Below are positions 7,041-47,057 of a stretch of 64,000 nt of DNA, piece after piece. The position numbers were made by a program, and so were the translations under genes. How positions within the stretch are numbered: position 1 is the first letter of the stretch; each line of letters begins with the position of its first letter. The notes beneath the pieces are model-generated. The model saw only the letters and a list, made by a program, of their open reading frames with translations, was not told where the DNA came from and ran no database searches. The DNA comes from Opitutaceae bacterium TAV5 (GTDB taxonomy: Bacteria; Verrucomicrobiota; Verrucomicrobiia; Opitutales; Opitutaceae). The stretch covers positions 3,953,001-4,017,000 of the forward strand of contig CP007053.1 in assembly GCA_000242935.3 (NCBI GenBank). Direction: 5' to 3'.

Positions 7041-7049
7041 GGCGGCAGG

Positions 7050-8024: not shown

Positions 8025-8038
8025 GGCGGCGGGGCGGA

Positions 8039-10098: not shown

Positions 10099-10410
10099 CG
10101 TGGCAGGATGAGTCGGATGGTTGCGGGTGCGGGCGAGGCCGGAACCGGCAGGCGTGGCAGCAAGCCGGATCATGATCGTGACCGGCAGGCGAATTATCAG
10201 GAGGGAGCCGGCGGTTCTGTCAAACGGTTCATAACTGCCGCAGGATGTAGCAAGGTCCGGACCAGGGCGAGGGGGAGTTTCCGGGGGCGGGGCGGTGGTA
10301 GCGTTACCTTGCTACCGTTCAATTGACGAAAAGCAGAAAGAGTCGGAAGACGCTGACGCTGAACGCTCAACCGTGAGCGTTCGATGAATCGGCCATCCTG
10401 GCCGGTGCGC
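10099..10410. promoter_or_regulatory. Upstream region of the liv operon; inverted repeats
   Basis: No gene is visible in these 312 bp. They carry the liv promoter region and the 3' end of the amaP-like gene. A perfect 9-bp stem with a 4-base loop (10361-10369 / 10374-10382, GAACGCTCA arms) sits just after the amaP stop and may end that transcript, though no U-run follows. A 10-bp inverted repeat, GTAGCAAGGT at 10247-10256 and its complement at 10306-10315, is a candidate regulator site. Confidence 0.45.
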
Positions 10411-11405: not shown

Positions 11406-14400
11406 TCACGCCGGGCGCAGGCGGAGGGTCTTGATCTCGAAGGGACGGAAATCGAGGCCGAGGCCGGCGGCGTCGGGCAGGGGCAGGGCGCGGCCGGAGA
11501 GCGGGTTTTCGAGCATGTCGGTCTCGCAGGCGCTATGGAAGGAGGTGGCGGCGAGGTCGATGCGCAGGCGGCAGCGTGTGGCGGCGCGGGCGGATTCGTA
11601 GAGGCGCAGGACAAGGTCGCCGCTGTCATCCTCGGCGAGTTTTACGGTCTCGAGAATGATGTTGGGGGCATCGCAGGAGAAGAGTGAAACGCCTGAACAT
11701 CCGGCATCCGGCGTCGAATGTCGAACATCCGGTGGCCGGATGTCCGGCGCGAAGCGCAGCGGGGCGTTGAGTTCGAGGGCGGCCTGCGTGACCCCGCTGC
11801 CGACGAAGGGCCCGTCCCAAGCGTAGAGAGCGTAGGTGAATTCGTGGTCGCCGAGATCGGCGTGCATGTCGGGCGCCTGCGGGGCGCGCAGGAGCGTGAG
11901 GGCGAGCGTGTTTTGCTCGGCGCTGATGCCGTGTTTGCCGTCGTTGAGCAGGGCAACGCCACGATTTTCCTCGGCGAGGGCGCTCCATTTTTGCTGGCAG
12001 ACCTCGAAGCGGTCCCGGTCGGCCTTGCGGGAGCGATGCGTGGGACGTCGAAGGTGGCCAAACTGGATTTCGTGGAGAGCCTCGTGGGCAGTGAGGGCGA
12101 GCGGGAAGGCGACTTTGAGGAGCTTGTGTTTTTCGTGCCAGCGGATGCGGGTGCGGAATTCGATGCGGCGCGAGTTGCGGGCCAGCCGGATTTCCTGATC
12201 GAGGTCGGAATCGTGCAGGCGGCGGCGAATGCGGAGGACGGTGGCGAGCGGGCCGTCGGAGAGGAGTTCGACGGTGGCGGGCGTAGCGGCGGGGGGAGTG
12301 AGATCGACGGGTTGCCGGGCGTAGTGGGACTCGATCTCCCAGGCATCGCAGACGCGCGGGGTGTCGCGGTACATGCGGAAATCGTTGAGCGGGGCGGCAG
12401 CGAGTTCGCGGCCCATAGCCTTGTCATGCCAGCTCGTGATGCGGCCGAGTTGATCGAGAACGAGGCGGTAGAGGGTGTTTTCGAGGATCAGGGAGGAGGT
12501 GGACGGAGATCGGTCGGATCGGACCGACGGATCGGCGAGTGGGGTGACCGCGGTGGCAAGGTCGGTCCAGCCGCAGGCGGGAACGGTGGCGCTGACCCAG
12601 GTGGTGCCGTCCAGCCGGAGTGTGGGTGTGGCGGGCGGGAGCGCATCGGCAGGGAATGCGGGCGGCAGTGCAACGAGTTCGGTGCGGGGCCAGGCAAGTG
12701 AATTGAAGAGGAGGGCGGATTGTCGTGGCACAGGCGTCGCGTCCACAGTCTGTGGACCAGACGGGCTGGAAGCCTGTGAGACCGAACGGGCCGGAAGCCC
12801 GTGCCACTCACTCAGCACAGCCATGGCGGTATTGGCGACCGCCGTGGCCTCGGCGAGGGATTTGTCGTAGAACTCGCGGGCTTCCTGCGCGGCGCGTTCG
12901 ATGCAAGAGCCGGGGAGAATGTCGTGAAACTGGTTGAAGAGCGTTTTTTTCCAGGCGGTTTCGAGAGCGGCGCGGGGCCAGGCATGAGGAGAGGAGGCCC
13001 GGCGGGTGAAGATATACGCGACGGCTGACCAGAGTTCGGCTTCGCGGAGCATCATTTCGCAGCGACGGTTGCCGCGCTTGAGGGCGGCCTGTGTGGTGTA
13101 GCAGCCACGATGGGCGGGCAGATAGATTTCGCCTGTCCAGGCGGGGAGAGGGTCGGGCTGTTTTTCCTGATATTCGAAGAATTCGGCGGGCGTGGCATGG
13201 CGGCAGCGCGGGGCGCCTTCGAGGTCGGCCAGGCGGCGGAGATACTCGAGATGGGCGCGTTCGCAGCCGCCGCCGCCGTCGCTGTGTCCATAGACCGCCA
13301 TGCGGGCGCGAATGCCGTCCTTTTGCGGGTTCTGTTTCCATTGGGTATCGATCGACCGCGGGTTGGTCATGATGCCGTAGCTGGGCACGAAATGCGAGAA
13401 AACGCGGGTGCCGTCGATGCCTTCCCACCAGAAGGTCGTGTAAGGGAAGGGATCGCCTTCTTCGGCGAAGACGGTGAAGAGCTTGGAGGAGCCGAAATGC
13501 TCGATGCCGCAACCGGCCATGATCTGCGGCAGCGAACCGGTGAAGCCGAAGGTGTCGGGGAGCCAGGCAAAGGTGCTCTCGACGCCGAACTCGTCGCGGA
13601 AGAAACGGCGTCCGTAGAGGAACTGGCGGATGAGGGATTCACCGCCGGGGAGGTTGGTGTCGGCTTCGGTCCACATCGCGCCTTCGGGAATCCACTGCCC
13701 GCGGCGCACGGCGTCCTTCACGCGGGCGTAGAGGCGCGGGTGCAGGCGCTTCGCGATCTCGTAGAGCACGGGCATGCTCTGGAGGTAACGATATTCCGGA
13801 TACTGCTCCATGAGGCCGAGCTGGTTGGCGAAGGTGCGGGCGACCTTGCGCTCGGCTTCCTTGAGCGGCCACTGGTAAACAATGTCGAGGTGACTGTGGC
13901 CGATGCAGAAGAGGGTGGGGGCGGTGGTGCCATTGTGGCAGGCCAGGAGCGGAGCGAGGCGTTCGCGGGCGCGCAGGAGAGTGGAGCGCATTTCCGGCCA
14001 GGGAAGCTCGGGGTCGGCGATGAGGGTGAAGTCGCGGAGGCCGGCGTCGATTTCGGCGACGCGGAGCGAATCGGGGTCGAGCTGGTCGCGGAGATCGAGG
14101 AGCGTGCGGGCATCCATCGCGAGCTGAAAAATGTCCTCGCGCCAGAAGCCGGCGGTAACGTCGGGGAGGATACGCTGTTGCGGCGGCGGTTCGGGGAGCG
14201 TGGGTACGCCGTGAAGCGCCGGACCGCCGCCGGCGCCGGCGCGGGTGGGGCCACCGAAAGCCTCGGCGAGGAATTGAAGTGGCGCGGGCGTCCCGCCCGC
14301 CGGGGTTGAAGAATGCGGGCGATTGGCGGAAAAAGCCCGCGCCACAGGCAGGTAAACGTGCGCCCAGTCGCGGGAGCCGATTTCGGCGCCGTCGATAAAG

Positions 14401-14717
14401 ACGCGCCACTCGCCGAACATGTCGCCGCCGAATTGCGGGGTGGGATGGCCGGCGTGGAGGACGGGGTGTTCGTTGGTTTCCGGGGAGGGGGGGAGGGGGG
14501 GGATTTGCCCGCGAAACCAGGCGTATTGCCACTTTGCTCCCCAGCGCGTGCCGGGAGCGATGGGCGAGAAGGCGCGGCACATGGCCTCGTCGGCCGTGAG
14601 CTGGTCGTAAGTGAAAAATGCCTCCAGGGCCAAGGGAGCGACGGGAGCGTAGACGAGCTGGTCGAGGGCCTTGATCCAGGCCTCGATTCGGGGGCGCCAT
14701 TCGGTGTTGAGGGACAT
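11406..14717 (-). CDS. GH38 family alpha-mannosidase
   Basis: A 1103-residue retaining alpha-mannosidase of glycoside hydrolase family 38. The zinc-binding motif GHSHLDI is near residue 272, the nucleophile Asp lies in WLPDTFGF near 386, and the family stretch NQFHDILPGSCIERA precedes the beta-sandwich half. No signal peptide is present, so a cytoplasmic enzyme acting on imported manno-oligosaccharides is likely. Two in-frame segments look foreign: residues about 124-146 and 636-664 are encoded by palindromic repeats found between genes elsewhere. It is the last gene of carbohydrate locus 1, 63 bp after the alginate-lyase-domain gene. Confidence 0.95.
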   Translation of the reverse strand: MSLNTEWRPRIEAWIKALDQLVYAPVAPLALEAFFTYDQLTADEAMCRAFSPIAPGTRWGAKWQYAWFRGQIPPLPPSPETNEHPVLHAGHPTPQFGGDMFGEWRVFIDGAEIGSRDWAHVYLPVARAFSANRPHSSTPAGGTPAPLQFLAEAFGGPTRAGAGGGPALHGVPTLPEPPPQQRILPDVTAGFWREDIFQLAMDARTLLDLRDQLDPDSLRVAEIDAGLRDFTLIADPELPWPEMRSTLLRARERLAPLLACHNGTTAPTLFCIGHSHLDIVYQWPLKEAERKVARTFANQLGLMEQYPEYRYLQSMPVLYEIAKRLHPRLYARVKDAVRRGQWIPEGAMWTEADTNLPGGESLIRQFLYGRRFFRDEFGVESTFAWLPDTFGFTGSLPQIMAGCGIEHFGSSKLFTVFAEEGDPFPYTTFWWEGIDGTRVFSHFVPSYGIMTNPRSIDTQWKQNPQKDGIRARMAVYGHSDGGGGCERAHLEYLRRLADLEGAPRCRHATPAEFFEYQEKQPDPLPAWTGEIYLPAHRGCYTTQAALKRGNRRCEMMLREAELWSAVAYIFTRRASSPHAWPRAALETAWKKTLFNQFHDILPGSCIERAAQEAREFYDKSLAEATAVANTAMAVLSEWHGLPARSVSQASSPSGPQTVDATPVPRQSALLFNSLAWPRTELVALPPAFPADALPPATPTLRLDGTTWVSATVPACGWTDLATAVTPLADPSVRSDRSPSTSSLILENTLYRLVLDQLGRITSWHDKAMGRELAAAPLNDFRMYRDTPRVCDAWEIESHYARQPVDLTPPAATPATVELLSDGPLATVLRIRRRLHDSDLDQEIRLARNSRRIEFRTRIRWHEKHKLLKVAFPLALTAHEALHEIQFGHLRRPTHRSRKADRDRFEVCQQKWSALAEENRGVALLNDGKHGISAEQNTLALTLLRAPQAPDMHADLGDHEFTYALYAWDGPFVGSGVTQAALELNAPLRFAPDIRPPDVRHSTPDAGCSGVSLFSCDAPNIILETVKLAEDDSGDLVLRLYESARAATRCRLRIDLAATSFHSACETDMLENPLSGRALPLPDAAGLGLDFRPFEIKTLRLRPA
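12724..12810. repeat. Palindromic repeat lying in frame inside the alpha-mannosidase
   Basis: Contains GGGCTGGAAGCCTG and GGGCCGGAAGCCCG type palindromes plus CACAGTCTGTGG, the same units that fill intergenic gaps. It encodes about 29 residues (WHGLPARSV... to VPRQ) between the end of the helical domain and the VxFNxLxW strand that normally follows closely in GH38 enzymes. The insertion keeps the frame. Confidence 0.75.
14279..14345. repeat. Palindromic repeat with GTGGCGCGGGC ends, in frame inside the alpha-mannosidase
   Basis: A 67-bp segment opens GTGGCGCGGGCGTCCC and closes GCCCGCGCCAC, so its ends are inverted complements. It encodes a Pro/Ala/Ser-rich loop near residues 124-146. The same ends bound the 86-bp intergenic repeat at 62614-62699. 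Confidence 0.7.
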
Positions 14718-14780: not shown

Positions 14781-16049
14781 CTACCAGGAGGGATTCTTGC
14801 CGAGGAGCCAAAGCATGCGGTTTGCGGGATCAGGGAGGCTGCCATCCAGCGGCTTGTTTTGCCCTGCGACAGGATCGATCATGCGGATCGCGCCGAGAAG
14901 GGCAGGGGTCCGGTAAACTTTGGCTGGCCAGCGCAGGATTTCGGTGGAGGTCGGGTAATCGGGTTTGTCTCCCATTCGGGGCCATGTCCATTCCTTGGCT
15001 CCGGAGAGATAGGGTGCAGCGAAATTAAAGGCACTTTCCACTCCACGACCTTCGGGCGTTTTGTAGTGCCAGATGTCGTGGCCGGTGAGTTCTCCGCAGC
15101 GGGCGAGAGCGATAAAGGCCTGCAGGGTGTACCGTGTATACATGAGCGAACGTGTCCGCTTGAGTTCAGCCGGGAGGGATCCGTCGGAAGCAATCTGTTT
15201 GGCGATGTGGCGGCGCGCCCGTTCATAGACAGGTGCAAGGTCGGAGGTTTCGCCAATGTAGATGGAGCAGGTTGCGACCTGGGTAGCATACCAGATACCG
15301 TGGTTATTGCCCATCTCCCGCTCCCGTTTGCCGAAGGGACTTTCTAACAGCCAGATCCTGAATTCCCTAAACCAGGACTGGAGAGAGGTGTTGTCGGCGG
15401 AGGTCCAGGATTCGGAGAGGGTGAGGAGCTGGACGTAGTCGATGAGCTTGCTGAGGGCGACGCCTTCAATGATACCGATGTAGTGTCCGTCGTGAACGCC
15501 GGGTTGCGAGGCGGCGTAGTTAAGATTCGGATTCATCCGGGTGGACGGATCGGTGAACCAGGTGCGCAGGAGGGTGGTGGCTTTGGCGGCATATTTTTCG
15601 TTGCCACTGTAGAACCAGGCGAGACAAAGGGTGGTAATGTCGCGGGCGTTGGCGTCCCAGGCGCCCTTATCGTATTTGGGGCCGCGGGCTTCGGGATTAC
15701 GCTGTCCGTCACGGCGAATGTAGGGCAGGCCGTCGGATGTCTCGGGATTGGGCCAGGAGTAGTTACCAATGGCGAAGAAGTCGTGTTTGTCCCCGGAAGG
15801 GGCAACAAGTTGTTTATCAAGGACGCTGGGTGCTTTTTTCGGGAGAACGGCGTCGGCTTCTGCAAGGAGTCTGGCGCAAGCATGGCGCGCGGGACTGGTG
15901 TCGGGATGGGAACGGAGATCCTCGCGGATCGCAATGAGGTCGTCGTAGTCGAGATTGATGAGCACGGGCCCGGGGGAGGGCTTGGCGGCCTGCAAAGGCA
16001 GGAACGCCGTCAGGGCGGCAATGAAGAGAAGGGCGTGGCGAAGAGTCAT
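14781..16049 (-). CDS. Secreted alginate-lyase-domain protein (PF05426-like polysaccharide lyase)
   Basis: A 422-residue protein with an export signal (hydrophobic LLFIAALTAFLPLQ, cleavage near LQA-AKP). It carries the hallmarks of the alginate lyase (alpha/alpha) barrel family: NYSWPNPETSDGLPYIRRDG, then NNHGIWY with the catalytic-type Asn-His pair, and YTRYTLQAF. Families PL5 and PL38 share this fold and cleave alginate or glucuronan by beta-elimination. Which uronate polymer is cut here is not decidable. The start codon overlaps the upstream glycosidase gene by 4 bp. Confidence 0.85.
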   Translation of the reverse strand: MTLRHALLFIAALTAFLPLQAAKPSPGPVLINLDYDDLIAIREDLRSHPDTSPARHACARLLAEADAVLPKKAPSVLDKQLVAPSGDKHDFFAIGNYSWPNPETSDGLPYIRRDGQRNPEARGPKYDKGAWDANARDITTLCLAWFYSGNEKYAAKATTLLRTWFTDPSTRMNPNLNYAASQPGVHDGHYIGIIEGVALSKLIDYVQLLTLSESWTSADNTSLQSWFREFRIWLLESPFGKREREMGNNHGIWYATQVATCSIYIGETSDLAPVYERARRHIAKQIASDGSLPAELKRTRSLMYTRYTLQAFIALARCGELTGHDIWHYKTPEGRGVESAFNFAAPYLSGAKEWTWPRMGDKPDYPTSTEILRWPAKVYRTPALLGAIRMIDPVAGQNKPLDGSLPDPANRMLWLLGKNPSW

Positions 16050-17545
16050 TTGTCTGGATTCACGGATACGGGGATGGAAAGGCAGATGGGCGAGTCGTGG
16101 ATGCTCACGAGCTTTATCATCGAACGGCCTTTTTTCGTCTCAACCGGATACGTTTCTGTTTTATCCTCAAAAATATTGTAGAAAGACGCGGTGAAACCTT
16201 CGGGAAGGGCCGGAGTGATTTCGATGTCGCACAGTCGGGGCTTCGTGTCGCCATCGGCTCGCTCGGCGGACCAGAGGAAAATTTTCGTGGCGCCGTCGCG
16301 GGTGGTGAACGGGTAGGATTTTATCGAGCCGGGCGTGGCGAGCCGGGCACCATCCCACGTGAAGGGATGGACGTCGTTGCGTCCACGCACGGGGAAGAAT
16401 TCAACCTCGATCTTTTTGCTGAAATCCGGTGTGGCGTTGTCGAGTGAACGGGCGAGACGCTGGACCGCGTACCAGGAGGGTTTGGGAGTGTAGTCGCGAC
16501 GGAGGAGTCCCCAGTTGTGCTCGGCGTTGTAGGGGTCGTCTCCGTCGTCGCGGAAGTCGTATTGGAAGCTGCGCGCGCAACCAAGGCCGATGCTTTCGAC
16601 GTAGCGGCGGAGAATGTATTTGGCCTGGGCGCTCTCGGTGAAACCGGCGTTCATGTCGCTCGCCTTGGCTTCCTGGTGTGTGGCCCAGCCCCATTCGGTG
16701 AGCCAGATTTCCTTGGGTCCGTTGTACTTTCGGGACTGTTCACGATACATGCGGATTTGCGAGGCGAAGGTGCCTTTCTCGTCGGCGGTGGCGATACCGT
16801 CGCGTTTGAGAATGGTGGGCTGCGCGGCCCAAGGGACGAGTTCAGGGACGAGGCGGTAGCTGTAGGGATGGTCGGCAATGCCATCCACCTCGGGGACGAT
16901 GCCCATTGCGATCTGGCGGAAGTTGACGGGAGCAACGCTGCCGAGGCCGGTGACTTTGATGTCGGGATTGGCGGCCTTGATCGCTGGAGCAGCAGTGTTG
17001 ATGAGTTTCACGTATTTGCCTACCCATGATGAAACTGAACCGTCTTTCTCGATACCGTTCCAGGTGCCTTTGTAGTATCCGGCGTAGGATTTCTGGTAGG
17101 GTTCGTTGAGGATTTCCATCGCATGGATTTTGCCTTGCAGGGTTTTGGCGACCCAGGCGGCGGCCTTGGCGTAGGCGTCGGGGTCGAAGTGGTCGGCGTA
17201 GAGTTTGTTGCCGCCATTGAATGTAATGGAAATCTTGAGGCCGGCGGCATTGGCACGCTCGATCCAGCGGAGGCTGGCTTGGGGGATGGAATAAACGCCC
17301 CTGTTTTTTTCCACTTGGCCCCAGTAGATGGCATTGCGCAGCCAGGCGATGCCGGAGTCGGCGAGGAGGGGCATTATTTTGTCGAGGTCGTAGTCGCGCC
17401 AGTTGGGGTTGTCGCCTTGCTGGAAATGGACGCCGGTGCCCATGCGGTCGTCGCGTATTGTTTTATTGGATGCGCCCGGGGTTTGGGCGTGGGCGACGGT
17501 CAGCGTGAGTGCCAGCGCGAGGAGAGGGGTGGCGAGGTTTCTCAT
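16046..17545 (-). CDS. Secreted clan GH-A glycoside hydrolase-like protein
   Basis: A 499-residue protein. A signal peptide (LATPLLALALTLTVAHA, cleavage before QTP) is followed by a TIM-barrel glycosidase. GVHFQQGDNPNWRDYDLDKI opens the barrel, MEILNEP supplies the likely acid/base Glu, and IWLTEWGW the likely nucleophile Glu, the arrangement of clan A (GH5/GH39-like) retaining enzymes. The last 100 residues look like a beta-sandwich accessory domain. It is translationally coupled (4 bp overlap) to the alginate-lyase-domain gene, so both probably act on one extracellular glycan. Confidence 0.82.
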   Translation of the reverse strand: MRNLATPLLALALTLTVAHAQTPGASNKTIRDDRMGTGVHFQQGDNPNWRDYDLDKIMPLLADSGIAWLRNAIYWGQVEKNRGVYSIPQASLRWIERANAAGLKISITFNGGNKLYADHFDPDAYAKAAAWVAKTLQGKIHAMEILNEPYQKSYAGYYKGTWNGIEKDGSVSSWVGKYVKLINTAAPAIKAANPDIKVTGLGSVAPVNFRQIAMGIVPEVDGIADHPYSYRLVPELVPWAAQPTILKRDGIATADEKGTFASQIRMYREQSRKYNGPKEIWLTEWGWATHQEAKASDMNAGFTESAQAKYILRRYVESIGLGCARSFQYDFRDDGDDPYNAEHNWGLLRRDYTPKPSWYAVQRLARSLDNATPDFSKKIEVEFFPVRGRNDVHPFTWDGARLATPGSIKSYPFTTRDGATKIFLWSAERADGDTKPRLCDIEITPALPEGFTASFYNIFEDKTETYPVETKKGRSMIKLVSIHDSPICLSIPVSVNPDK

Positions 17546-18176: not shown

Positions 18177-18956
18177 TCAGGGTCTGGTGGGGTCTTTGCC
18201 GGAAGAGCGCATGGCAATGACTTGCTCGTTGCTCAGAAACTTCACGTGACCGTCAAAAAACACGAAGTTCTTGCCGTAATTTTTGTGAAAGCTGCGCATG
18301 GCGACGCTGCCGTTCGCCGGCTGCACAATGTCGCTCCCGACACCGTTGAAGAGCCTTTCCCGGTCGAAGGCGCTGCTTGTTACATCGGTGATGTGCATCT
18401 CCGTGAACATGATGGTTCTGCTGGGCACGGTAATGCTGGAGAACAGGCGCGCGGCGCCGCCGTCGTAAGTCGTGGTGCCATCTTCGTTGGTGGTACCGAC
18501 TTTCCAGATAAACGTGATCGGGTGGTAGCTGCGGGGTTTTATGGTGTCGGCAAAAGCGGCGACATTTTTCGCGTGGCTGGGACAAAGCAGGCTGAAGCGG
18601 TCTTTGGAAAAATAACCTTGGTCGATGAGATATTTGGACCAGCAGGCTTGGCCGGAGGGGCTGAACGGAATGAGCGTCCCTTTGTGGTCGTCGATCCAGA
18701 GAAGGTTGGCTTGGCCGAGAGATCGGAGGGTAGCCGCGCATTTTGCGGTGTTGGCCGATTCGCGGACCTGGCCGATGGCAACAAGCGAGAGGGCGGCGAG
18801 GATACCGATGATGGCGATTACCGTGAGCAATTCGATGAGAGTAAAGGCGGCGGCGGACGCGGTCAGGGTAATGGACTCTCCTGGAGAAGTTTTTACCGGA
18901 TACGCCGCCTTGCTGTGGCTCCGGGAAAGAAGAACAGGTCGTGGCCTGATGATCAT
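18177..18956 (-). CDS. Type II secretion-like pseudopilin with H-x(n)-DG C-terminus
   Basis: A 259-residue single-gene pseudopilin. A 37-residue leader precedes the class III prepilin motif AFTLIELLTVIAIIGILAAL; the residue before Phe is Ala, where Gly is usual. The large C-terminal domain ends with YGKNFVFFDGHVKFLS, the FxDGHV box of Planctomycetes-Verrucomicrobia pseudopilins. These are thought to assemble in a type II secretion/type IV pilus apparatus and to lie at the surface beside glycan-degrading enzymes, which is inference. No assembly ATPase or secretin gene is present in the window. Confidence 0.88.
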   Translation of the reverse strand: MIIRPRPVLLSRSHSKAAYPVKTSPGESITLTASAAAFTLIELLTVIAIIGILAALSLVAIGQVRESANTAKCAATLRSLGQANLLWIDDHKGTLIPFSPSGQACWSKYLIDQGYFSKDRFSLLCPSHAKNVAAFADTIKPRSYHPITFIWKVGTTNEDGTTTYDGGAARLFSSITVPSRTIMFTEMHITDVTSSAFDRERLFNGVGSDIVQPANGSVAMRSFHKNYGKNFVFFDGHVKFLSNEQVIAMRSSGKDPTRP

Positions 18957-19027
18957 GATAGTGGGGTTTGGAGTTCAGGGTTTGGGTGGTGAGCGAAACG
19001 CGCCGGATAAGCGCGAGACGATGGCGG

Positions 19028-20728
19028 TCAATTGATGTGGAGATCGCGCAAGTGCTTGCGGAGTCCGACGGTGATCAGAAGGGAAAAAGCACCCGTAATC
19101 CAAACCCAAGTCGAGGGCTCGGGAATCGCGGAGGTGACCGTGAAGGTGAGGGCGTTGGCGGTGAGCGCAAAGGTGCCTTCGAGGCCGTTGGCGTTGAGGG
19201 TAAGGCGCTCGGCGAGGTTTTGTTCGTCGAGGTTCACAAAGCCTCCGGTGACGCTGAGCAGCGTATAGGTTGTGCCGGAGGCCAGGGCGGCGCCGTCGAG
19301 CGCGTTCAGGTTGATGATGACGGGGGCGAGTCCGGTGGTATCGGAAAAGGTGATGACGCTGGCATCGCCGGTCAGGATGATGCCGTCCGATGCGGACGGA
19401 TCGGCGGTGAGATCGAAGTTGAGGGTTGCGCCGCCATCGAGCGTGAGGGAGCCGACCCAGGTGAGCGCGGCGGCGGCGGCGATGCGTTGTCCGGCGGAGA
19501 AGCCGTTTTCCTGATCGGTCCAGTAATCGCTCACGTGGAGGGTGGCGGAGCTTTCCAGCAAAAGGGTGCCGGCGGCGCCGGTGCTGTCGGTGGTCAGGGA
19601 GCGAGTGGCGAGACCGGTTTCGCCCGCGACGGCGAGCGTGGCGCCGGAGTTGATTTGCAGGTCGCTGGTGGCATAGTCGGTCGAGTAAAATTTGCCGCCG
19701 ACCCGCTGTGTACCGGTTTCGATGGTGACGGTGCCGTGTCCGATATAGAGGTCTCTGGCAATGGCGGTTGCGCCGTCGGTTTTTTGGAGGACGAGATTGA
19801 CATTCTGACCCCACAACAGGGTCTGGCCGGTGTAGGTGTTGGAGGCTGCGCCGCCGAAACGCACCGTGCCCGTGCTGCTGAATTTGAGGCCGTTGTTGCC
19901 GCCATCGTCGCCAATTGCGCCGTTGAGAATGAGCAGGTCGGTCGCCTTGTTTTGGGCAATGAGGTTGATGCCTCGCAGGGCGTCCGTGCCGGTGAGGGTG
20001 ACGGCCTTGGTGAAGGTGAAGCCGCGTTGGGTACCGTTGTACCCAAGCGTGAAGTTGCCGGAGATGTTGAGGGCTTGATTGAGCTCGGTCATCGCGACGC
20101 CAGAGCTGGTGCTGTTGCGAAGCGTGCCGCCTTCCATCGTAATCGCGCCCGTGCCGGCGGCGGCGGCAGTCGTCAGGGTGACGGTCCCGCGTTTGACGGT
20201 GAGACCGCCTTGGAAGGTGTTGGTTTTCGTGAGGGCGAGAACACCCGCCGCATCCACCACAATGCCTTGGGTGCCTTGCACCACGCCGTTGAGGGTCATC
20301 TGCCCTGTGCCCGTTCCCGTGAAGTGGAGGGTACGGTTGAGCGTGAGCTGGTTGCTCCAACTGGAGGTGTTGGTGTTGTTCAACTGGAGTTCGGCAAAGC
20401 CGTCGGCGGTGGGGGCGTTGGTTGAAAAGGAGTTGGTCCCGGCAATCGTAACAACGCCACTTTCGGAGGAGATAACGAGCCGGTTGAAGCTCATCCCGGC
20501 GCCGCTGTTTTGCGTGACGGTATAGCTGCCGGATTTCGCGAGGATGATCCCGGTTTCCGTGCCGGATTGGGCAACGCCGTTGGCGTCCCAGTTTTCCACG
20601 TTATTCCAACGGGTATCGTCTCCCTCTCCAGTCCATGTGTAGGTTGTAGCGTGGAGGAACAGGCTGGAGGCGAGGGTGAATGAGAATCCGGCGCACAACC
20701 GGAGGAGCAGGGCGGGGGGTGGTTTCAT
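19028..20728 (-). CDS. Autotransporter-associated beta-strand repeat protein with PEP-CTERM tail
   Basis: A 566-residue exported protein. The signal peptide is followed by YTWTGEGDDTRWNNVENWDANG, the usual opening of these autotransporter-associated repeat proteins. A Gly/Thr/Asn-rich parallel beta-helix region follows, with repeats such as GGLTVKRGTVTL. The C-terminus is a PEP-CTERM signal: IPEPST, a hydrophobic helix and a basic end RKHLRDLHIN. PEP-CTERM proteins are processed by an exosortase and displayed with exopolysaccharide. It is the first gene of the locus 1 minus arm and is divergent from the AraC regulator. Confidence 0.88.
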   Translation of the reverse strand: MKPPPALLLRLCAGFSFTLASSLFLHATTYTWTGEGDDTRWNNVENWDANGVAQSGTETGIILAKSGSYTVTQNSGAGMSFNRLVISSESGVVTIAGTNSFSTNAPTADGFAELQLNNTNTSSWSNQLTLNRTLHFTGTGTGQMTLNGVVQGTQGIVVDAAGVLALTKTNTFQGGLTVKRGTVTLTTAAAAGTGAITMEGGTLRNSTSSGVAMTELNQALNISGNFTLGYNGTQRGFTFTKAVTLTGTDALRGINLIAQNKATDLLILNGAIGDDGGNNGLKFSSTGTVRFGGAASNTYTGQTLLWGQNVNLVLQKTDGATAIARDLYIGHGTVTIETGTQRVGGKFYSTDYATSDLQINSGATLAVAGETGLATRSLTTDSTGAAGTLLLESSATLHVSDYWTDQENGFSAGQRIAAAAALTWVGSLTLDGGATLNFDLTADPSASDGIILTGDASVITFSDTTGLAPVIINLNALDGAALASGTTYTLLSVTGGFVNLDEQNLAERLTLNANGLEGTFALTANALTFTVTSAIPEPSTWVWITGAFSLLITVGLRKHLRDLHIN

Positions 20729-20836: not shown

Positions 20837-21763
20837 ATGCCTCGTATCGACTACTCTTTCCGTTTCCCCTCCGATGTGTGCCGGTTCGCATGGTGGCAGT
20901 ATCCGTTGATTGATGTGCGCACGTCGCTGCACACACATGTTTTTCACGAGGTATTCTGGGTCGAAGAGGGGGAGGGGGTGCATGTCATCAACGGGGAACA
21001 GCGGCGGTTGTTTCCGGGACTGCTGGTGTTGATCCGGCGTGAGGACTCGCACGGGTTTTCGGCGGCACGCAAGGGGCCGGGAGAGTTTGTGCGGTTCGCC
21101 AATTTTGCCTTCGCCTGCGAGTTGTGGGAACGGTTGCGGAGGAGGCATTTTCCGGAGGTCAGGATGCGGGGCCGTGGAAGGAGGACTGCTGGCGGCGGGG
21201 GCAATAGTAGTGGCAACAGTGAAGGCGAACGGTGGTTTGCCGAACCGGATCACCGCAAGCGCGAGTTCGAGCTCGATGCCGCCCAGGTGGAGCGGTTGCG
21301 CGCGATGGCGCATGACCTCGACGCAGGCGCACGCGATGCGTTGAGCGCGGAAGCATTCCTGAGCGGGGTCATGGCGTTGCTGGTGAACGCGCGGCATTCC
21401 CGGCAGGCGCTGCCGGAATGGCTGGCTGTCGCTTGCAAGCGGATTCAGGAGCCGGAGCATTTTCGCGGCGGCACGGCAGAACTGGCGCGGCTGGCGGGAC
21501 GCAGCCCGGAACATGTGGCGCGGGAGGTGCAGCGGTTGCTGAAAAAGACGCCGACGGATGTGCTCAACGAGGCGCGGATGACTTACGCGGCCCACGAACT
21601 GAATACGACCTCACGCGAGATCATCGACATCGCGGCGGACTGCGGCCTGGAGAACCTCGGGCATTTCTACAAAATCTTCCGGCGGCGGTTCGGTGTCACT
21701 CCGCACCGGTATCGGAAACATGCCTACGCGACGCCGGAGTTACGGCTGGCGGGAGGGCGATGA
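20837..21763 (+). CDS. AraC family transcriptional regulator
   Basis: A 308-residue regulator. The N-terminal cupin-like sensor domain has the HTHVFHEVFWVEEGEGVHVI pattern typical of sugar-sensing AraC proteins. The C-terminal double helix-turn-helix runs from about residue 200 to 295 and ends IIDIAADCGLENLGHFYKIF then FGVTPHRYRKH, the diagnostic AraC signature. A Gly/Arg/Ser-rich loop (about residues 115-130) in the linker looks like an insertion. Divergent placement suggests it controls the glycan locus that runs from 20728 down to 11406. Its last 68 bp overlap the convergent DTW gene. Confidence 0.92.
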   Translation: MPRIDYSFRFPSDVCRFAWWQYPLIDVRTSLHTHVFHEVFWVEEGEGVHVINGEQRRLFPGLLVLIRREDSHGFSAARKGPGEFVRFANFAFACELWERLRRRHFPEVRMRGRGRRTAGGGGNSSGNSEGERWFAEPDHRKREFELDAAQVERLRAMAHDLDAGARDALSAEAFLSGVMALLVNARHSRQALPEWLAVACKRIQEPEHFRGGTAELARLAGRSPEHVAREVQRLLKKTPTDVLNEARMTYAAHELNTTSREIIDIAADCGLENLGHFYKIFRRRFGVTPHRYRKHAYATPELRLAGGR

Positions 21764-41185: not shown

Positions 41186-42139
41186 TCAGGCGGTGTAAAC
41201 GTTCTGTATGATTTCCAGGGCGCGCAGGCCGTCGCGGGCGGTACAGCCGAGCGGCTCTTCTCCGCGAATCGCACGGAAAAAGTGAGCCATCTCCTCGACG
41301 AAACCCAAGCTGGATTTGACGGCAATAATCTGCGGCTCTCCTCCTTCGGCCGGCAGCACGCGAATCTCCGTGTCGCGGTCGTAGTCGAAAAAGATCCGGC
41401 CCTTCGTGCCCATGATGTCAATGACCGCCGATCCCGTGCCGGCGATCCACGACGCGGTGAACGCACCGACGGCACCCTGTTCCGATTTGACGATCAGGAT
41501 ACCGGTATCCTCGACATCGATACCCGGCAGGGAGGTATGCGTGAACCCGCGCTGTCCGCCGATCTCGCCGCAGAGGAAGCGGAAAAGGTCCACCGAGTGG
41601 CTGGTGGTATCCATCAGCGCCCCTCCGCCGGCAATGGCGCGTTTGCCAAACCAGCGGTCTTTCAGGAAGGAGGCCGGACCGGCAAAGACATTGTTCAGGT
41701 AAACGATTTCGCCGATGGCCCCCGCCACGACCAGTTCCCGGATGCGGCGGATGGCGGGCAGAAAGCGATGCCGGAAACCGGGCATGAGCAGGGCGGACGA
41801 ACGCTCCGCCGCCTCCAGCACGCGCCGACCGGATTCCAGGGTGTGCGCGAGCGGCTTCTCGCAGATGACATGGATGCCGCGGGCGAGTGCCGCGACCGCG
41901 ATATGCTCGTGATCCGCCGGTGGCGTGCAGATGCAGACGACGTCGGCCAGGCCGGATTCGATCAGTTCATCTGCAGTGTCGAAGACCCGGGGATTTCTTG
42001 GCAGGCCGGAGGCCATCTTTTCGGCGGCCGGCCGATGAAGATCGGCCAAGGCGGTCACCGTCGCTCCGTTTGCGCGACAGGCGTTTGCGTGATGTGCGGC
42101 GATCCCGCCGCAACCAATAATACCGATGCGTGGTTGCAT
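41186..42139 (-). CDS. Gfo/Idh/MocA family oxidoreductase
   Basis: A 317-residue oxidoreductase with a full Rossmann motif (IGIIGCGGIAAHHANAC), HVICEKPLAHTLESGR with the conserved EKP, and GGALMDTTSHSVDLFRFL in the active-site region. The three members are diverged paralogues, so each may perform a separate oxidation or reduction of one sugar. It lies 33 bp after the AGE epimerase gene. Confidence 0.92.
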   Translation of the reverse strand: MQPRIGIIGCGGIAAHHANACRANGATVTALADLHRPAAEKMASGLPRNPRVFDTADELIESGLADVVCICTPPADHEHIAVAALARGIHVICEKPLAHTLESGRRVLEAAERSSALLMPGFRHRFLPAIRRIRELVVAGAIGEIVYLNNVFAGPASFLKDRWFGKRAIAGGGALMDTTSHSVDLFRFLCGEIGGQRGFTHTSLPGIDVEDTGILIVKSEQGAVGAFTASWIAGTGSAVIDIMGTKGRIFFDYDRDTEIRVLPAEGGEPQIIAVKSSLGFVEEMAHFFRAIRGEEPLGCTARDGLRALEIIQNVYTA

Positions 42140-42172: not shown

Positions 42173-43486
42173 TCAGGGGGCCCGCGCAGCCATAATGCGG
42201 TCGAGCGAGCGGAGGCAGAGACGGAGCGCCCGGACGACATGAAAATCCACCTTCCAGTTGGTGCCTCCGCGGTAGTTTTCGCCGGTCAGGCGGTGTCCGT
42301 CCATATCGACGACGGAAAACCAGCAGCCGGTGCCGTCGCGGGCCATGTTGTCGAAGCTCCAGCGGGTGATCCGCTCGAAATGGCGCAGATAGTTCTCTTC
42401 ACCGGTCACCTCGTAGAGGCGCATCAGCGTGATCATGGCCTCGTTCTGGCTCCACCAGAGGATGCGGGTATCCCGGGTGGGGCCATCGGGCGGGCCGATG
42501 TAGTTCACGCCGACGCCGTCGCGAAGTCCGTATTCAAAAAATCCTGACATGAGATTTTCCCACCAAGGTCGAAGGCTGGCGGGCTCTCCTCCGAAGGTCT
42601 GCACGGCGTCGAGCACATACCAGAGCATCTCCATGTTGTGCCCGTAGCAGGTGATGGTGTTGAATTGCCCGTTCTCCCAAGGCCGGGCGTCTTCGATCGG
42701 CCGGAAATCCCGGGTCAGTGCATAATAGCCGTTGCCGTTGGGCGCGTGAAAGCGCGTGCACATGATGTCGATGAGCTGCTGCGCGCGGCGGCGGTAGATA
42801 TCCCGCGGGCTGGACCGGTAAAGGCGGGCCAGGGCCAGAATCATGTGCAGGTGCGTGGCGCTCTGTTTGCGGAGATTCAGCCGATGGGCGGGCGGCAGGT
42901 CGCGGCGGTCGAAATAACCTCCGTGAAGCGGATCCGCGGAGCGAGCCTCGATCAGCTCGAAGGTTTTCCGGGCATACTCCCGGGCCTCCGGATCGCCGAT
43001 CATGCGAAAAAGCTCGGCGAGGATATAGATCGCGTAGATCTCGCCGACGCCGACTTTCGACGGGTCCGCGACGCTGCCGTCGCGATTCAGCTCCCAGTGC
43101 CATCCGCCGTCCTTTTTGTCGTGGAATTTTACGACCAGAAAACGGAACTGGCGCTCATACTCCGCCTGAAGCTCCCGCCTGCGCGCCGGCTCGCGACAGC
43201 GATGGAGGGCGAGCGCGTAGTTGTAGAGCATGCGCAGGTGGACGATCAGGTTTTTCTCCGTCCGTCCGGTCGGTCGCAACTCCTCGTCGAGAAACACGAG
43301 GAAGCCGCCATGGCGCTCGTCGCGGAGCCGGGGAGACGTCCAGAAGGCCAGCGTGCGGTCGAGCTGGTTTCCCAGTTCGACCTTCCAGTCCGCCAGCGTC
43401 CTGCTCCCGACGCCGGCGACGCCATCGTCCGTTGCGAAACACAAGGAGACGCCTGAGGCAAACCGGACTGGAGAGAAGGATGGCAC
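42173..43486 (-). CDS. AGE family epimerase (N-acylglucosamine / cellobiose 2-epimerase-like)
   Basis: A 437-residue (alpha/alpha)6-barrel sugar epimerase. Family features are KNLIVHLRMLYNYALALHRC, HDKKDGGWHWELNRDG, EIYAIYILAELFRM, HGGYFDRRDLPP, QSATHLHMILALARLYR, CYGHNMEMLWYVLDAV and ILWWSQNEAMITLMRLYEVT, with the barrel-lining His residues expected of cellobiose 2-epimerase and N-acyl-D-glucosamine 2-epimerase. The N-terminal 25 residues are not conserved-looking. It lies 12 bp after the secreted protein gene. Substrate is undetermined. Confidence 0.9.
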   Translation of the reverse strand: MPSFSPVRFASGVSLCFATDDGVAGVGSRTLADWKVELGNQLDRTLAFWTSPRLRDERHGGFLVFLDEELRPTGRTEKNLIVHLRMLYNYALALHRCREPARRRELQAEYERQFRFLVVKFHDKKDGGWHWELNRDGSVADPSKVGVGEIYAIYILAELFRMIGDPEAREYARKTFELIEARSADPLHGGYFDRRDLPPAHRLNLRKQSATHLHMILALARLYRSSPRDIYRRRAQQLIDIMCTRFHAPNGNGYYALTRDFRPIEDARPWENGQFNTITCYGHNMEMLWYVLDAVQTFGGEPASLRPWWENLMSGFFEYGLRDGVGVNYIGPPDGPTRDTRILWWSQNEAMITLMRLYEVTGEENYLRHFERITRWSFDNMARDGTGCWFSVVDMDGHRLTGENYRGGTNWKVDFHVVRALRLCLRSLDRIMAARAP

Positions 43487-43498
43487 GACGGGGAGCGT

Positions 43499-45088
43499 TT
43501 ACTTGTGAAGCCTGATTCCGGAAAAGGTGACTTTGCCTTTCACCTGTTTGTCGGTGGACGAGACCTGCAGACGCAGCCCGGCAATGCGATCGAGATCGGC
43601 GATGCCATTGGCCGTGGGGAAACACCATTTGTTGCGGACGACCTGGCCGAGCAGGATTTCCTGGCGGCCTTTTTTCGGCGTCACCGGCAGATCCCAGACG
43701 TCACCGTCCTGGTCGACCAGTGACACGCCAACGACGGCGCCGTGAGTCTCCATCACGAGGTTCAGCACAAAAGAGATACTCCTGACGTCGGAAAAGTCGG
43801 CGAGCGTCCGGAACGGGAGCGCGTACTGCACGTAGCAACCGGTGTCTTCGATATCGAAAGTCAGGTCGGCACGGGCACCGTCCCAGGCGATGTCGCCCTT
43901 CGACTTGTAAACGGACCAGGCGGGGATGCTGGTCGCCGGCAACTCCGCCACCGGGCCTTTCCAGGCCGGCGCCACGGGGACCGGCGGAGGAGGCGCGGGC
44001 CGGGTCCAGTCGATCCGGATCTGCGGCCACATGGCATCTCCGCCAAGCAGGGCCATGATGTTGTTGCCCGCGTCGCAGACATTGCCGACGCCGGGTTTCA
44101 TGGCTTCCGGCACGTTCCGGATCAGGAGCCGCTCGTAATGCTTGATTTCATACGGAGAGCCAAGACGGCGCACGACGGTGAGCCAGTACGCGCCGCCCGA
44201 GGCAGGCCCGTGGGACTCCCTGAGCATGGGGTAAAATTTCTCGTCCGGCGGCGTGATGTAGGATGCGGCGAAGACATTGGCCAGGCCGTCGGGGTAGTGT
44301 TTTTCAAGTTCGAAAACAAAGCCGTCAAAGGGATCGCCGAACCAGCCATAGTATCCATGTTTGGGTGACCAGAACTTACGAAGCCCTTCCCGCGTGTTTT
44401 TCTCGATCTCGCGTGCGCGGGCCGCCGATGCCAGATCACCGAGCGCCTCGAAGAAGCGCGCGCCTTCATCCACGCCGACGCAGACCTCGATGTTGTCCAT
44501 GAGGTATTTCACACCGTGCGAGGGCTTGGCATAGGTGAGCCCGTCGCGGGGATCCAGCGTCAGCCCGATCGCGTCGAGGCATTTCCGGGCCGCCGGCAGC
44601 AATTCCCTGGCGACAGCCTCGTTTTTTGTGGCCTTCCAGTAGCGCCACAGGGTTTGCAGGTAAGTCGACGCGTAGGAGTCGGTCGAATCGAAATCGCCGG
44701 TGGAAGCGTACTGCGACAGCGTGCCTTTATAGTCGTTGACGGTGCCATCCGGATTCTGGTGCGCGGCGTACCAGCGGAGCCACTTCTCGACGAGGACAAG
44801 ATCCTCTTTTACCGGGCGGACTTCCCAGGCCGCCAGCACGCCCATGACGGCAATGTTGGAAAAATAAGGAACCGCCCAGAGCTTGTCGCCCTCGTTCTGC
44901 AGACGGATCAGGCCATCGGGCACCTGCGCGTCACGGATCACCGTGAGGCACGCATCGATGGCGGCGAGTTTTTCGGGCGAGACATTCCCGGCGGCAGCGG
45001 CGGCAGATGTCGGTGACGCAGTGGCGAACAGGCAGGCAAGCAGCAAGCCGCCGGGAAACGGGCGGGAGGCAGGGATGTTTGTTGGCAT
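43499..45088 (-). CDS. Secreted helical-barrel protein with C-terminal beta-sandwich; putative glycan-active enzyme
   Basis: A 529-residue exported protein (signal GGLLLACLFATASPTSAAAA). Residues 35-360 read as repeated helical hairpins of a six-hairpin (alpha/alpha) toroid: LWAVPYFSNIAVMGVLAAWE, WYAAHQNPDGTVNDYKG, DSTDSYASTYLQTLWRYWKA, YYGWFGDPFDGFVFELEKHY. The last 170 residues (from about 360) form a separate beta-rich, carbohydrate-binding-like domain. No GH family was identified with certainty. Between a pseudopilin and an AGE epimerase, it most likely attacks an extracellular glycan. Confidence 0.65.
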   Translation of the reverse strand: MPTNIPASRPFPGGLLLACLFATASPTSAAAAAGNVSPEKLAAIDACLTVIRDAQVPDGLIRLQNEGDKLWAVPYFSNIAVMGVLAAWEVRPVKEDLVLVEKWLRWYAAHQNPDGTVNDYKGTLSQYASTGDFDSTDSYASTYLQTLWRYWKATKNEAVARELLPAARKCLDAIGLTLDPRDGLTYAKPSHGVKYLMDNIEVCVGVDEGARFFEALGDLASAARAREIEKNTREGLRKFWSPKHGYYGWFGDPFDGFVFELEKHYPDGLANVFAASYITPPDEKFYPMLRESHGPASGGAYWLTVVRRLGSPYEIKHYERLLIRNVPEAMKPGVGNVCDAGNNIMALLGGDAMWPQIRIDWTRPAPPPPVPVAPAWKGPVAELPATSIPAWSVYKSKGDIAWDGARADLTFDIEDTGCYVQYALPFRTLADFSDVRSISFVLNLVMETHGAVVGVSLVDQDGDVWDLPVTPKKGRQEILLGQVVRNKWCFPTANGIADLDRIAGLRLQVSSTDKQVKGKVTFSGIRLHK

Positions 45089-45163: not shown

Positions 45164-45940
45164 TCAGCGGTAGGGAGATTTCTGGCTGGTCGGACGGAAA
45201 ACAGGCATGCCGGTAGCGACATGCCCGTCCGCGAACAGCATGTTGCCCTGGTGGTTCCCGTGCGGGCCGATTCCTTCGGCGTCTCCGTTGGGGACGTCGG
45301 GATTTGTCCTCTCCGCCATAAGCCAGACCCGGGAGGGATTCTGCTCCTGGGAGGCATCCGCCAGGCCGCTGGCGACCGCATCCGGATCGAGTGGATCAGC
45401 GAGCGTCGTGCGCCGTCCGTACACGCTGGCGCCCATGTACCATATGTAGCATGCCTTGGCCCTGACGGCCCCGAAATATGAACTCTCTCCCGTCGTCTTC
45501 AGGGCAGGGCACACCCCCACATTCCGGTTATCGAGGTAGGTGCTCAGGTAAGAGTAGACGCTGTCCGGTCTGGTCCAGACGAGTTCTTCGTCGCCCAAAT
45601 AATCATAGGCGGGAAAATCCCGCAGGGTATAGCCTCCCGCATCCCACAACTTCCCGGAGCCGTTGGGCAACTGCTTGTGATCCGCCTCGTACAAGGCCAG
45701 GGCGACGCCAAACTGGCGGAGATTGCCGAGGCAGACGGCCTTGGCCGCCTTGCTGCGCACCATGCCGAGCCCCGAGATGATAATGGCTGCCAGAATACCG
45801 ATGATGGCGATGACGGCGAGCAGTTCGATCAGGGTGAACGCCCCTGATGCTTTTCTTCCGAAACGGGAAATTCCCGGATAAACTCCGGACAATTCTGTCC
45901 GGATAAAATGAATACGTGTGCTATGGTGTTTCTTGTCCAT
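45164..45940 (-). CDS. Pseudopilin with H-x(n)-DG C-terminus
   Basis: A 258-residue pseudopilin. Prepilin motif AFTLIELLAVIAIIGILAAI follows a 33-residue leader, again with Ala rather than Gly before Phe. The C-terminal box is HQGNMLFADGHVATGM. Its domain differs from the locus 1 pseudopilin (259 residues) except in the helix and the DGHV box. The start lies inside the regulator gene (20-bp overlap), so the two are probably translationally coupled. Confidence 0.88.
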   Translation of the reverse strand: MDKKHHSTRIHFIRTELSGVYPGISRFGRKASGAFTLIELLAVIAIIGILAAIIISGLGMVRSKAAKAVCLGNLRQFGVALALYEADHKQLPNGSGKLWDAGGYTLRDFPAYDYLGDEELVWTRPDSVYSYLSTYLDNRNVGVCPALKTTGESSYFGAVRAKACYIWYMGASVYGRRTTLADPLDPDAVASGLADASQEQNPSRVWLMAERTNPDVPNGDAEGIGPHGNHQGNMLFADGHVATGMPVFRPTSQKSPYR

Positions 45941-47057
45941 TGGTTGCGGGCGCTGCCGGCAGCGTGCCCTTCAGCCGGACCGGCAGCGGCGGTTCCGGCT
46001 GGCCCAGCGTCCGCCGCATCAGGAGCGACAACAGCCGGGAGGCGATTTCCTTTATATCTACATCGTAGCGAAGAACCGGCACACCGTAGTGAAGGTTTAT
46101 GCCCTTGTTGGCCAGGGTGAGCACCACGATATCGTCGGGAACGGATATCTGGCGCTTCACCAGAGCAAGAGCCACGCCACGCGCGGCGATGTCGTCGGAT
46201 ACGATCAACGCATCCGGCCGATCGGCCCGGCCGCTCCAGGACGGAGCCGCCTGCAACACGCGCTGGTAACCCTCCCGCTCGAACGACGCTCCGCCGCGAT
46301 CGACCTGCAACTGGAGAATTTCCGGCTCGGGCAAACCGAGTTCCCGCACCGCGGCGGATAACCCCTCGAGGTCGTCGAGACGGTCGTTTTCCGCCTCGGC
46401 AAAACTCCTGACATAGGCGATGCGCCTCCGCCCGAGGGAAGCGAGATGCCTCACGCTCTGCCAGGCAAAATCCCGGTAGTCGAGCAACACATCGGGCGTC
46501 TCGCTCTCCACTCCCCAGTGCACGACCGGCAGCTTGTGGTCCTCCACCGGCAGGTTGCCCCCCTGCAACACCGAATTCAGGTCGATGATGCCGGTGAAGG
46601 AATAATTGGAGAGATCCGTCATCAACTGGTTGAAAACCGGATCCACCCGCTCCCCCTCCTGCCGGCGAAAGCTCCACGCACCATCGTACATGCGGCAGAT
46701 CCAGCCCAGCCGGCTGCCCTCCAGACGCAGGTGGTTCATCAGCGTGCGGGCAAACCAGGCCGGCTCGTCCGAAAGGCTGGATTCCATCACGACCGCCACA
46801 TTCATCAGCTTCTGCCCCTGGGCCACGAAACAGCCCCGGCGCTGACGGCGATCCACCAGACCCGAAGCGGCCAGGCGCGAGAGCGCGCGGTTCAATGACA
46901 CCGTGGATACCCGTAACTCCCGCGCCATGTCGGCAACCGAAGGCAGGCGCTGGCCCGGCTTCAGGGTACCTTCCTCGATCAGCCTGCGAAGCTGGCGCTC
47001 CAGCTGAATGTCCGTCGAGTCAGCGGTTTGTATGTCGATTTTCAGATCAAGACGCAT
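45921..47057 (-). CDS. GntR-type wHTH regulator with LacI-like ligand-binding domain
   Basis: A 378-residue regulator. Residues about 10-80 form a GntR winged helix (LERQLRRLIEEGTLKPGQRL then PSVADMARELRVSTVSLNRA). From residue 85 a periplasmic-binding-protein-like effector domain follows (MNVAVVMESSLSDEPAWFAR, YVRSFAEAENDRLDDLEGL, DALIVSDDIAARGVALALVK). This domain order is typical of sugar-responsive regulators such as AraR. It is the first gene of the locus 2 minus arm and overlaps the pseudopilin gene by 20 bp. Confidence 0.9.
   Translation of the reverse strand: MRLDLKIDIQTADSTDIQLERQLRRLIEEGTLKPGQRLPSVADMARELRVSTVSLNRALSRLAASGLVDRRQRRGCFVAQGQKLMNVAVVMESSLSDEPAWFARTLMNHLRLEGSRLGWICRMYDGAWSFRRQEGERVDPVFNQLMTDLSNYSFTGIIDLNSVLQGGNLPVEDHKLPVVHWGVESETPDVLLDYRDFAWQSVRHLASLGRRRIAYVRSFAEAENDRLDDLEGLSAAVRELGLPEPEILQLQVDRGGASFEREGYQRVLQAAPSWSGRADRPDALIVSDDIAARGVALALVKRQISVPDDIVVLTLANKGINLHYGVPVLRYDVDIKEIASRLLSLLMRRTLGQPEPPLPVRLKGTLPAAPATNGQETP

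Follow-up and report, generated by a model that had tools for sequence, protein, structure and literature searches.

Candidate polysaccharide-acquisition modules joining pilin-like, PEP-CTERM and secreted glycan-active proteins in Opitutaceae bacterium TAV5

In a 64,000-nucleotide stretch of the genome of Opitutaceae bacterium TAV5 (C1:3953001-4017000, hereafter the window), two loci each hold a gene for a type IV pilin-like protein, a gene for a PEP-CTERM protein, a regulator gene divergent from the latter and genes for secreted glycan-related proteins. With a probability of about one half, the two loci belong to an extensive group of sugar-regulated modules for polysaccharide acquisition in the termite-gut genus of TAV5, analogous to polysaccharide utilization loci (PULs), each supplying its own pilin to a shared filament machine. 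The support observed for this reading consists of the gene linkage, the sorting signals of the encoded proteins, the conserved pilin residue E5, the co-inheritance of pilin, enzyme and carbohydrate-binding module (CBM)-like domain, and the finding that PEP-CTERM proteins and regulators are exchanged.

The TAV5 genome comprises 7,417,673 bp in two replicons; the organism is a termite hindgut verrucomicrobium with a chromosome of 7,317,842 bp and a plasmid of 99,831 bp (PMC4358385). Whole-genome counts of first-look candidates gave 287 pilin-signal and 386 PEP-CTERM proteins, and linkage statistics were calculated for a contiguous 2.0 Mb of sequence around the window. Genes were called by codon usage, and pilins, PEP-CTERM proteins and regulators were assigned using our own profiles, yielding 1523 genes with 83 pilins, 98 PEP-CTERM proteins and 64 LacI, 30 AraC and 13 GntR regulators. 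The null model consisted of 1000 gene-label shuffles, in which general clustering of secreted-protein genes is not preserved. A second genome of the genus (G001) was evaluated among the best 150 matches, with pilins counted within 450 bp, and secretion of the products of genes following a pilin was judged by a crude signal-peptide rule.

A PEP-CTERM gene followed directly by a pilin gene on the same strand was found 27 times (shuffled mean 3.8, maximum 10). The reverse order occurred 9 times and convergent or divergent pilin/PEP-CTERM pairs 0 times; in 17 further cases one other gene, usually of secreted-enzyme type, lay between PEP-CTERM gene and pilin gene. Among the best matches in the second genome, a pilin followed 16 of 118 PEP-CTERM matches (1.0 expected, maximum 6). 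An earlier note, made from the window alone, had claimed that the two families are linked and had proposed a genome survey, which could have shown them adjacent no more often than chance; the counts bear the claim out, and chance co-occurrence is ruled out by the shuffles together with the second genome. The presence of two pilins in 64 kb is itself at the base rate (about 2.7 expected from 83 per 2 Mb), as is to be expected because the genome holds candidates of both families in the hundreds.

Regulators and enzymes take part in the same arrangement. A regulator gene diverged from a PEP-CTERM gene in 26 cases (mean 1.9, maximum 7), 23 of them with LacI, and from a pilin gene in 11 (mean 1.8, maximum 7). 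A PEP-CTERM or pilin gene was at most two genes away from 50 of the 64 LacI genes (expected 25, maximum 38) and from all 13 GntR genes (13/13; expected 5, maximum 11). Of 55 genes directly after a pilin, 36 encode a product that appears Sec-secreted (expected 16, maximum 29); these neighbours are diverse, comprising lyases, hydrolases, esterases and CBM proteins.

Part of each module is kept and part is exchanged. Homologous neighbour enzymes were found for 35% of the closest pilin pairs and for 1.4% of distant pairs. Beside two related pilins lie hydrolases that share 49% and 41% identity with that of the first locus (locus 1); both are accompanied by the same CBM-like domain, in one case fused to the enzyme. 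The PEP-CTERM proteins near these hydrolases are not alike, and the module with the fusion has a LacI regulator where locus 1 has AraC. The separate CBM-like protein of locus 1 shows 36% identity to the C-terminal domain of a 681-aa hydrolase of TAV5 (G000:C1:3239090-3241135). Among 388 genomes of the phylum, the locus 1-type hydrolase was often fused to the CBM-like domain; hydrolase and CBM-like domain stood beside a pilin, in scrambled gene order, at several loci of TAV5 as well as in two further lineages (G060, of the same taxonomic order, and G352, of the same phylum only), and in G145 a hydrolase of this type adjoins a PEP-CTERM gene. Thus pilin, hydrolase and CBM-like domain stay together, and PEP-CTERM protein, regulator class and gene order swap around this core. 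The modules had been proposed to be interchangeable, an idea that these data back in altered form, with the exchange lying in the parts around the core. A sister module of locus 1 (G000:C1:3237287-3243332) has this core, with LacI divergent from a PEP-CTERM gene, followed by a hydrolase-CBM fusion and then a pilin, and with regulator and PEP-CTERM protein differing from those of locus 1.

The PEP-CTERM proteins are mostly unlike one another, and the similarities of partner PEP-CTERM proteins and pilins are uncorrelated (r = 0.005). The layout is scattered over the pilin tree: PEP-CTERM before pilin (P>L) required 23 changes, compared with a shuffled mean of 21.2, and at least 6 changes are forced by supported branches. 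A single ancestral PEP-CTERM/pilin operon copied many times is, on both counts, unsupported as the sole cause. Content that is kept while order changes is the usual sign of functional linkage, and duplication explains only part of the pattern. As a side observation, two recent duplicate gene pairs of the 2 Mb list were copied as a unit, 990/1293 sharing enzyme, PEP-CTERM and LacI and 511/959 sharing enzyme and PEP-CTERM.

Both window pilins carry a type IV pilin-like N-terminus, scoring 24.1 (locus 1) and 25.1 bits (locus 2) against TIGR02532 (cut-off 16.3) and 21.6 and 27.0 bits against PF07963 (cut-off 21.2). For the H-X9-DG family TIGR04294 the scores of 16.4 and 13.3 bits fall below the curated cut-off of 19, with the motif still recognisable, and PF07596 (DUF1559/SBP_bac_10) is exceeded by locus 2 only (25.1 bits, cut-off 23.3; locus 1, 13.5 bits); 19 of 23 aligned pilins match PF07596 at E<=0.1. 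Both proteins lie far below the equivalog cut-offs of the GspG and GspH pseudopilins of the type II secretion system (T2SS; TIGR01710, 21.7 and 31.0 vs 88.85 bits; TIGR01708, 24.9 and 21.5 vs 80 bits) and that of Verru_Chthon cassette D (TIGR02596, 24.5 and 17.2 vs 70 bits). With the N-terminal helix left out, 76 of the 83 pilins form one similarity cluster. Two features that had been singled out in the window pilins are ordinary for the family: alanine at position -1 is the majority state (of 76 TAV5 pilins that could be scored, 47 have Ala and 29 have Gly), and the terminal DGHV box is the known H-X9-DG/DUF1559 C-terminal motif, present as DGH[VAIS] in 38 of 83 pilins. E5 is present in 76/76 scorable TAV5 pilins. 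Known type IV pilins require this residue to assemble into filaments. For the locus 1 pilin, AlphaFold predicts a pilin-like structure (pLDDT 78, pTM 0.71; helix 40-90), and fold comparison gave weak matches, with a best Foldseek E of 2.2 and a best VIA-align Z of 5.6 to PilA4 (6xxd), the remaining rows being type IV pilins as well.

Close relatives of these pilins were also seen in metagenome-assembled genomes (MAGs) labelled Alphaproteobacteria, Paceibacterota and Adlerbacteria (L120, L145, L155), which are probably due to contamination or to the shared N-terminal helix alone. On a contig titled Akkermansia muciniphila MAG (L172, 4296-8717), a pilin of this family is accompanied by genes for a secreted polysaccharide-lyase-like protein, Gfo/Idh and sugar transporters; the contig may be a misassigned Opitutaceae fragment.

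The machinery that would serve the modules is small. TAV5 has one prepilin peptidase gene and twelve T2SSF domain matches in six genes for about 290 pilin candidates, so that the pilins cannot each have their own machine. Three exosortase-like genes were found, all below the curated EpsH cut-off (TIGR02602; best E 9.9e-22, 79.1 vs 105.55 bits). Against PF07589 (cut-off 20.7) the locus 2 PEP-CTERM protein scores 14.9 bits and that of locus 1 gives no match; PEP motif, helix and basic tail are visible in both, and a profile from the stronger matches of this genome detects both. Autotransporter repeats occur in 9 of 67 PEP-CTERM proteins, and CBM96, CBM4/9, F5/8 and sialidase-like CBM domains once or twice each.

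A total of 287 pilin-signal candidates was counted in TAV5 and 186 in its genus mate. For 21 other Opitutales genomes the range is 7-29, and the additional genomes listed from the phylum sample reach 54 at most; the corresponding PEP-CTERM counts are 386 and 280, compared with 8-105 elsewhere. In the comparison of loci across species, most of those from Geminisphaera TAV2 have an adjacent PEP-CTERM gene, as do scattered loci elsewhere; most lack one. Since both counts are so much higher in the genus, the module theme appears to be mainly a property of the genus of TAV5 and diluted elsewhere.

The features of both loci are collected in Table 1. In locus 1, the AraC gene and the divergent PEP-CTERM gene are followed by pilin, CBM-like protein, hydrolase, alginate-lyase-family protein and GH38 enzyme, with a gap of 71 bp between PEP-CTERM gene and pilin; this layout of regulator, divergent PEP-CTERM gene, pilin and secreted enzymes is the common, standard case in TAV5. 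In locus 2, the pilin comes after the regulator, overlapping its 3' end by 20 bp, and leads into the secreted protein, the GlcNAc-2-epimerase-family gene and sugar oxidoreductases, and the opposite arm starts with the PEP-CTERM gene; among the sampled pilins, just 2 are arranged in this way. The earlier note had described one module repeated at both loci: all four kinds of component are present in each, and the layout differs in the placing of the locus 2 pilin behind the regulator. Elsewhere, a homologue of the locus 2 PEP-CTERM gene lies 76 bp downstream of a pilin on a Spartobacteria contig, and a homologue of the locus 2 secreted-protein gene adjoins a pilin in genome G084. Beyond locus 1, branched-chain amino acid-type ABC transporter genes (ATPases, permease, Peripla_BP_6 binding protein) occupy 5406-10173 on the minus strand. 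The gene calling by codon usage, which preferred an antisense frame at the AraC gene of locus 1, missed that gene and 10 more of the 30 AraC genes in the 2 Mb sample; these regulators therefore have atypical codon use, which perhaps stems from horizontal transfer.

Table 1. Features of the two loci (positions in the window; GH, glycoside hydrolase; GlcNAc, N-acetylglucosamine)
Locus	Feature	Position	Strand	Remarks
1	AraC-family regulator (HTH_18 + AraC-binding cupin)	20837..21763	+	divergent from PEP-CTERM gene; Pfam HTH_18 72 bits
1	PEP-CTERM surface protein, autotransporter-type (PATR-like) repeats, C-terminus IPEPSTWVWITGAFSLLITVGLRKHLRDLHIN	19028..20728	-	detected by a profile from the stronger matches in this genome
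1	type IV pilin-like protein, H-X9-DG/DUF1559 group	18177..18956	-	directly after PEP-CTERM gene; TIGR02532 24.1 bits
1	secreted CBM-like protein, 196 aa	17567..18157	-	homologous to C-terminal domain of hydrolase fusions elsewhere
1	secreted glycoside hydrolase, clan GH-A-like	16046..17545	-	weak GH5/GH53 matches; homologues adjoin pilins
1	secreted alginate-lyase-family protein (PF05426)	14781..16049	-	254.7 bits
1	GH38 alpha-mannosidase	11406..14717	-	same strand, next in line
2	Gfo/Idh/MocA sugar oxidoreductase	41186..42139	-	annotation
2	GlcNAc 2-epimerase-family protein	42173..43486	-	annotation
2	secreted glycan-related protein, without Pfam match	43499..45088	-	pilin-adjoining homologue in a different family of the phylum
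2	type IV pilin-like protein (DUF1559)	45164..45940	-	TIGR02532 25.1 bits; PF07596 25.1 bits (cut-off 23.3)
2	regulator, GntR DNA-binding + LacI-type sugar-binding (Peripla_BP_3) domains	45921..47057	-	divergent from PEP-CTERM gene; GntR 62.9 bits, Peripla_BP_3 67.2 bits
2	PEP-CTERM protein, start possibly 47157, C-terminus IPEPAAAGLMLCAVALSGAWFLRRRAGR	47214..48095	+	divergent from regulator
2	DUF4434 protein	48133..49149	+	on PEP-CTERM arm
2	sodium:solute symporter	50463..52382	+	on PEP-CTERM arm, further along

In the proposed mechanism, an inducer would be sensed by a regulator carrying a sugar-binding domain, generally of LacI or GntR-LacI type and in locus 1 of the AraC family, which would control the divergent operon. 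Upon induction, a PEP-CTERM protein, sorted by exosortase to the cell surface, would be produced together with the pilin and secreted lyases or hydrolases. The single prepilin peptidase would process the pilin, which would then be incorporated into the filaments of a few shared T2SS or type IV pilus machines. Within the filament it would be the subunit particular to its module, keeping the matching glycan at the cell for the enzyme or, possibly, recruiting the enzyme instead. That the pilin holds or captures glycan is suggested by analogy, because there is a precedent in the dextran-binding pili-like fibres of Planctomycetes (Boedeker 2017, PMC5394234). We hold only tentatively the wider possibility that in the termite-gut Opitutaceae roughly 100 or more sugar-regulated modules each supply a pilin to one shared machine, with subunits exchanged to match the polysaccharide and a pilin in place of the SusD-type binder of Bacteroidota.

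Several observations weigh against acquisition modules of this kind. AraC, the regulator class of locus 1, showed no enrichment beside PEP-CTERM or pilin genes (14 of 30, 12 expected), and a search for LacI-type operators between regulator and PEP-CTERM gene, covering the simple centre-CG palindrome only, found no enrichment. Foldseek and VIA-align returned no lectin-like fold for the pilin model, a result that does not exclude a lectin. The pilin tree is poorly resolved, recent duplicates have common neighbours whether or not these cooperate, and glycan binding, surface localisation and module expression are predicted from the sequence. The shuffles, moreover, leave general clustering of secreted-protein genes out of the expectation, although the directionality of the pairs argues against such clustering as the whole cause.

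Clustering of this sort is the core of the explanation in which two abundant families adjoin simply because secreted-protein genes cluster and the clusters duplicate, with no joint function. It would draw on the sheer size of both families (287 and 386 candidates), on the whole modules that are recent duplicates and on the uncorrelated partner similarities (r = 0.005). It is disfavoured and very improbable, as it leaves unexplained the strict direction and order (27 vs 9 vs 0), the repetition of the pattern in the second genome of the genus and the recurrence of the same gene set in scrambled order in other lineages; the scatter of layouts over the pilin tree, with at least 6 supported changes, also speaks against a single duplicated ancestor. 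A joint function could instead be sought in secretion, with each module contributing a minor pseudopilin whose role is to bring the Sec-exported enzyme or PEP-CTERM protein of that module to a common type II secretion machine; such a pilin would recognise the enzyme, not the glycan. Pilins do track their enzymes and CBM-like proteins, which fits glycan capture equally well; the next gene usually encodes a Sec-type signal, weak GspG/GspH similarity was found in 23/23 aligned pilins, and many pilins face few assembly platforms. Sampled Opitutales outside the genus, however, have only 7-54 pilin-signal candidates, and no dedicated secretion genes were seen in the two loci, so that we regard a role as secretion adaptor as unlikely. 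Less probable still is that the pilin is an inner-membrane-tethered periplasmic protein, binding solutes or holding enzymes, which never enters a filament. The Pfam name of its C-terminal family (SBP_bac_10) and the 74 DUF1559 genes of R. baltica, described as a solute-binding family (PMC2754498), are in its favour, as is the excess of pilins over assembly machines; E5, in 76 of 76 scorable pilins, is not needed by a plain anchor, and because it is invariant, incorporation into filaments is likelier than a bare anchor.

Every part of the modules is of a known kind. The Sus-type PULs of Bacteroidota likewise place a sugar-responsive regulator beside surface proteins and secreted carbohydrate-active enzymes, in many substrate-specific copies whose order varies while content is kept; they differ in that the recurring non-enzymatic parts here are a PEP-CTERM protein and a pilin. 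Among the genes annotated in the two loci there is no SusC/SusD pair, and no search for one was made across the genome. In Planctomycetes, of the same superphylum, pilin-like proteins have been proposed to capture polysaccharide, and pilin-like 'fishing rods' have been reviewed (PMC12078418); that work is cell-biological, and its accessible portions describe no module of PEP-CTERM protein, regulator and enzyme. For Akkermansia, glycan acquisition by a verrucomicrobium through two mucin-utilisation loci, a Sus-like locus and a pilin/PilM locus (MUL1/MUL2), has been summarised (PMC13174399); MUL2 differs in having PilM and an archaeal-type pilin, and the summary mentions neither a PEP-CTERM protein nor a divergent LacI/GntR regulator. 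The H-X9-DG/DUF1559 prepilin-like proteins, a family without assigned function, share the N-terminal prepilin signal and C-terminal DGH motif, although the locus 1 pilin falls below both curated cut-offs and locus 2 exceeds that of PF07596 only. Verru_Chthon cassettes (TIGR02596, TIGR02599) also contain verrucomicrobial pilin-signal proteins, unlike which the window pilins score far below the TIGR02596 cut-off. Many diverse PEP-CTERM proteins per genome, 65 in V. spinosum, are known from the PEP-CTERM/exosortase system, relatives of whose exosortase are present in TAV5; its known link, in the accessible part of the source, is to exopolysaccharide genes, with no pilin operon described (Haft 2006, PMC1569441). 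A published description of PEP-CTERM proteins joined with pseudopilins or prepilins in Verrucomicrobia or Opitutaceae was not found in a search that most subscription journals lay outside, so that one may exist elsewhere; within this incompletely searched literature, the genome-wide sugar-regulated combination was likewise not encountered.

The modules bear on the standing question of how verrucomicrobia without obvious Sus systems capture large polysaccharides. Several bacteria of the Planctomycetes-Verrucomicrobia-Chlamydiae superphylum possess large sets of pilin-signal and PEP-CTERM proteins without known role, and the linkage offers a use for both. A module with a known enzyme activity would predict the inducing glycan as well as the glycan that its pilin should help to acquire. 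For these termite-gut bacteria, the modules may be the means by which plant or gut polysaccharides are captured.

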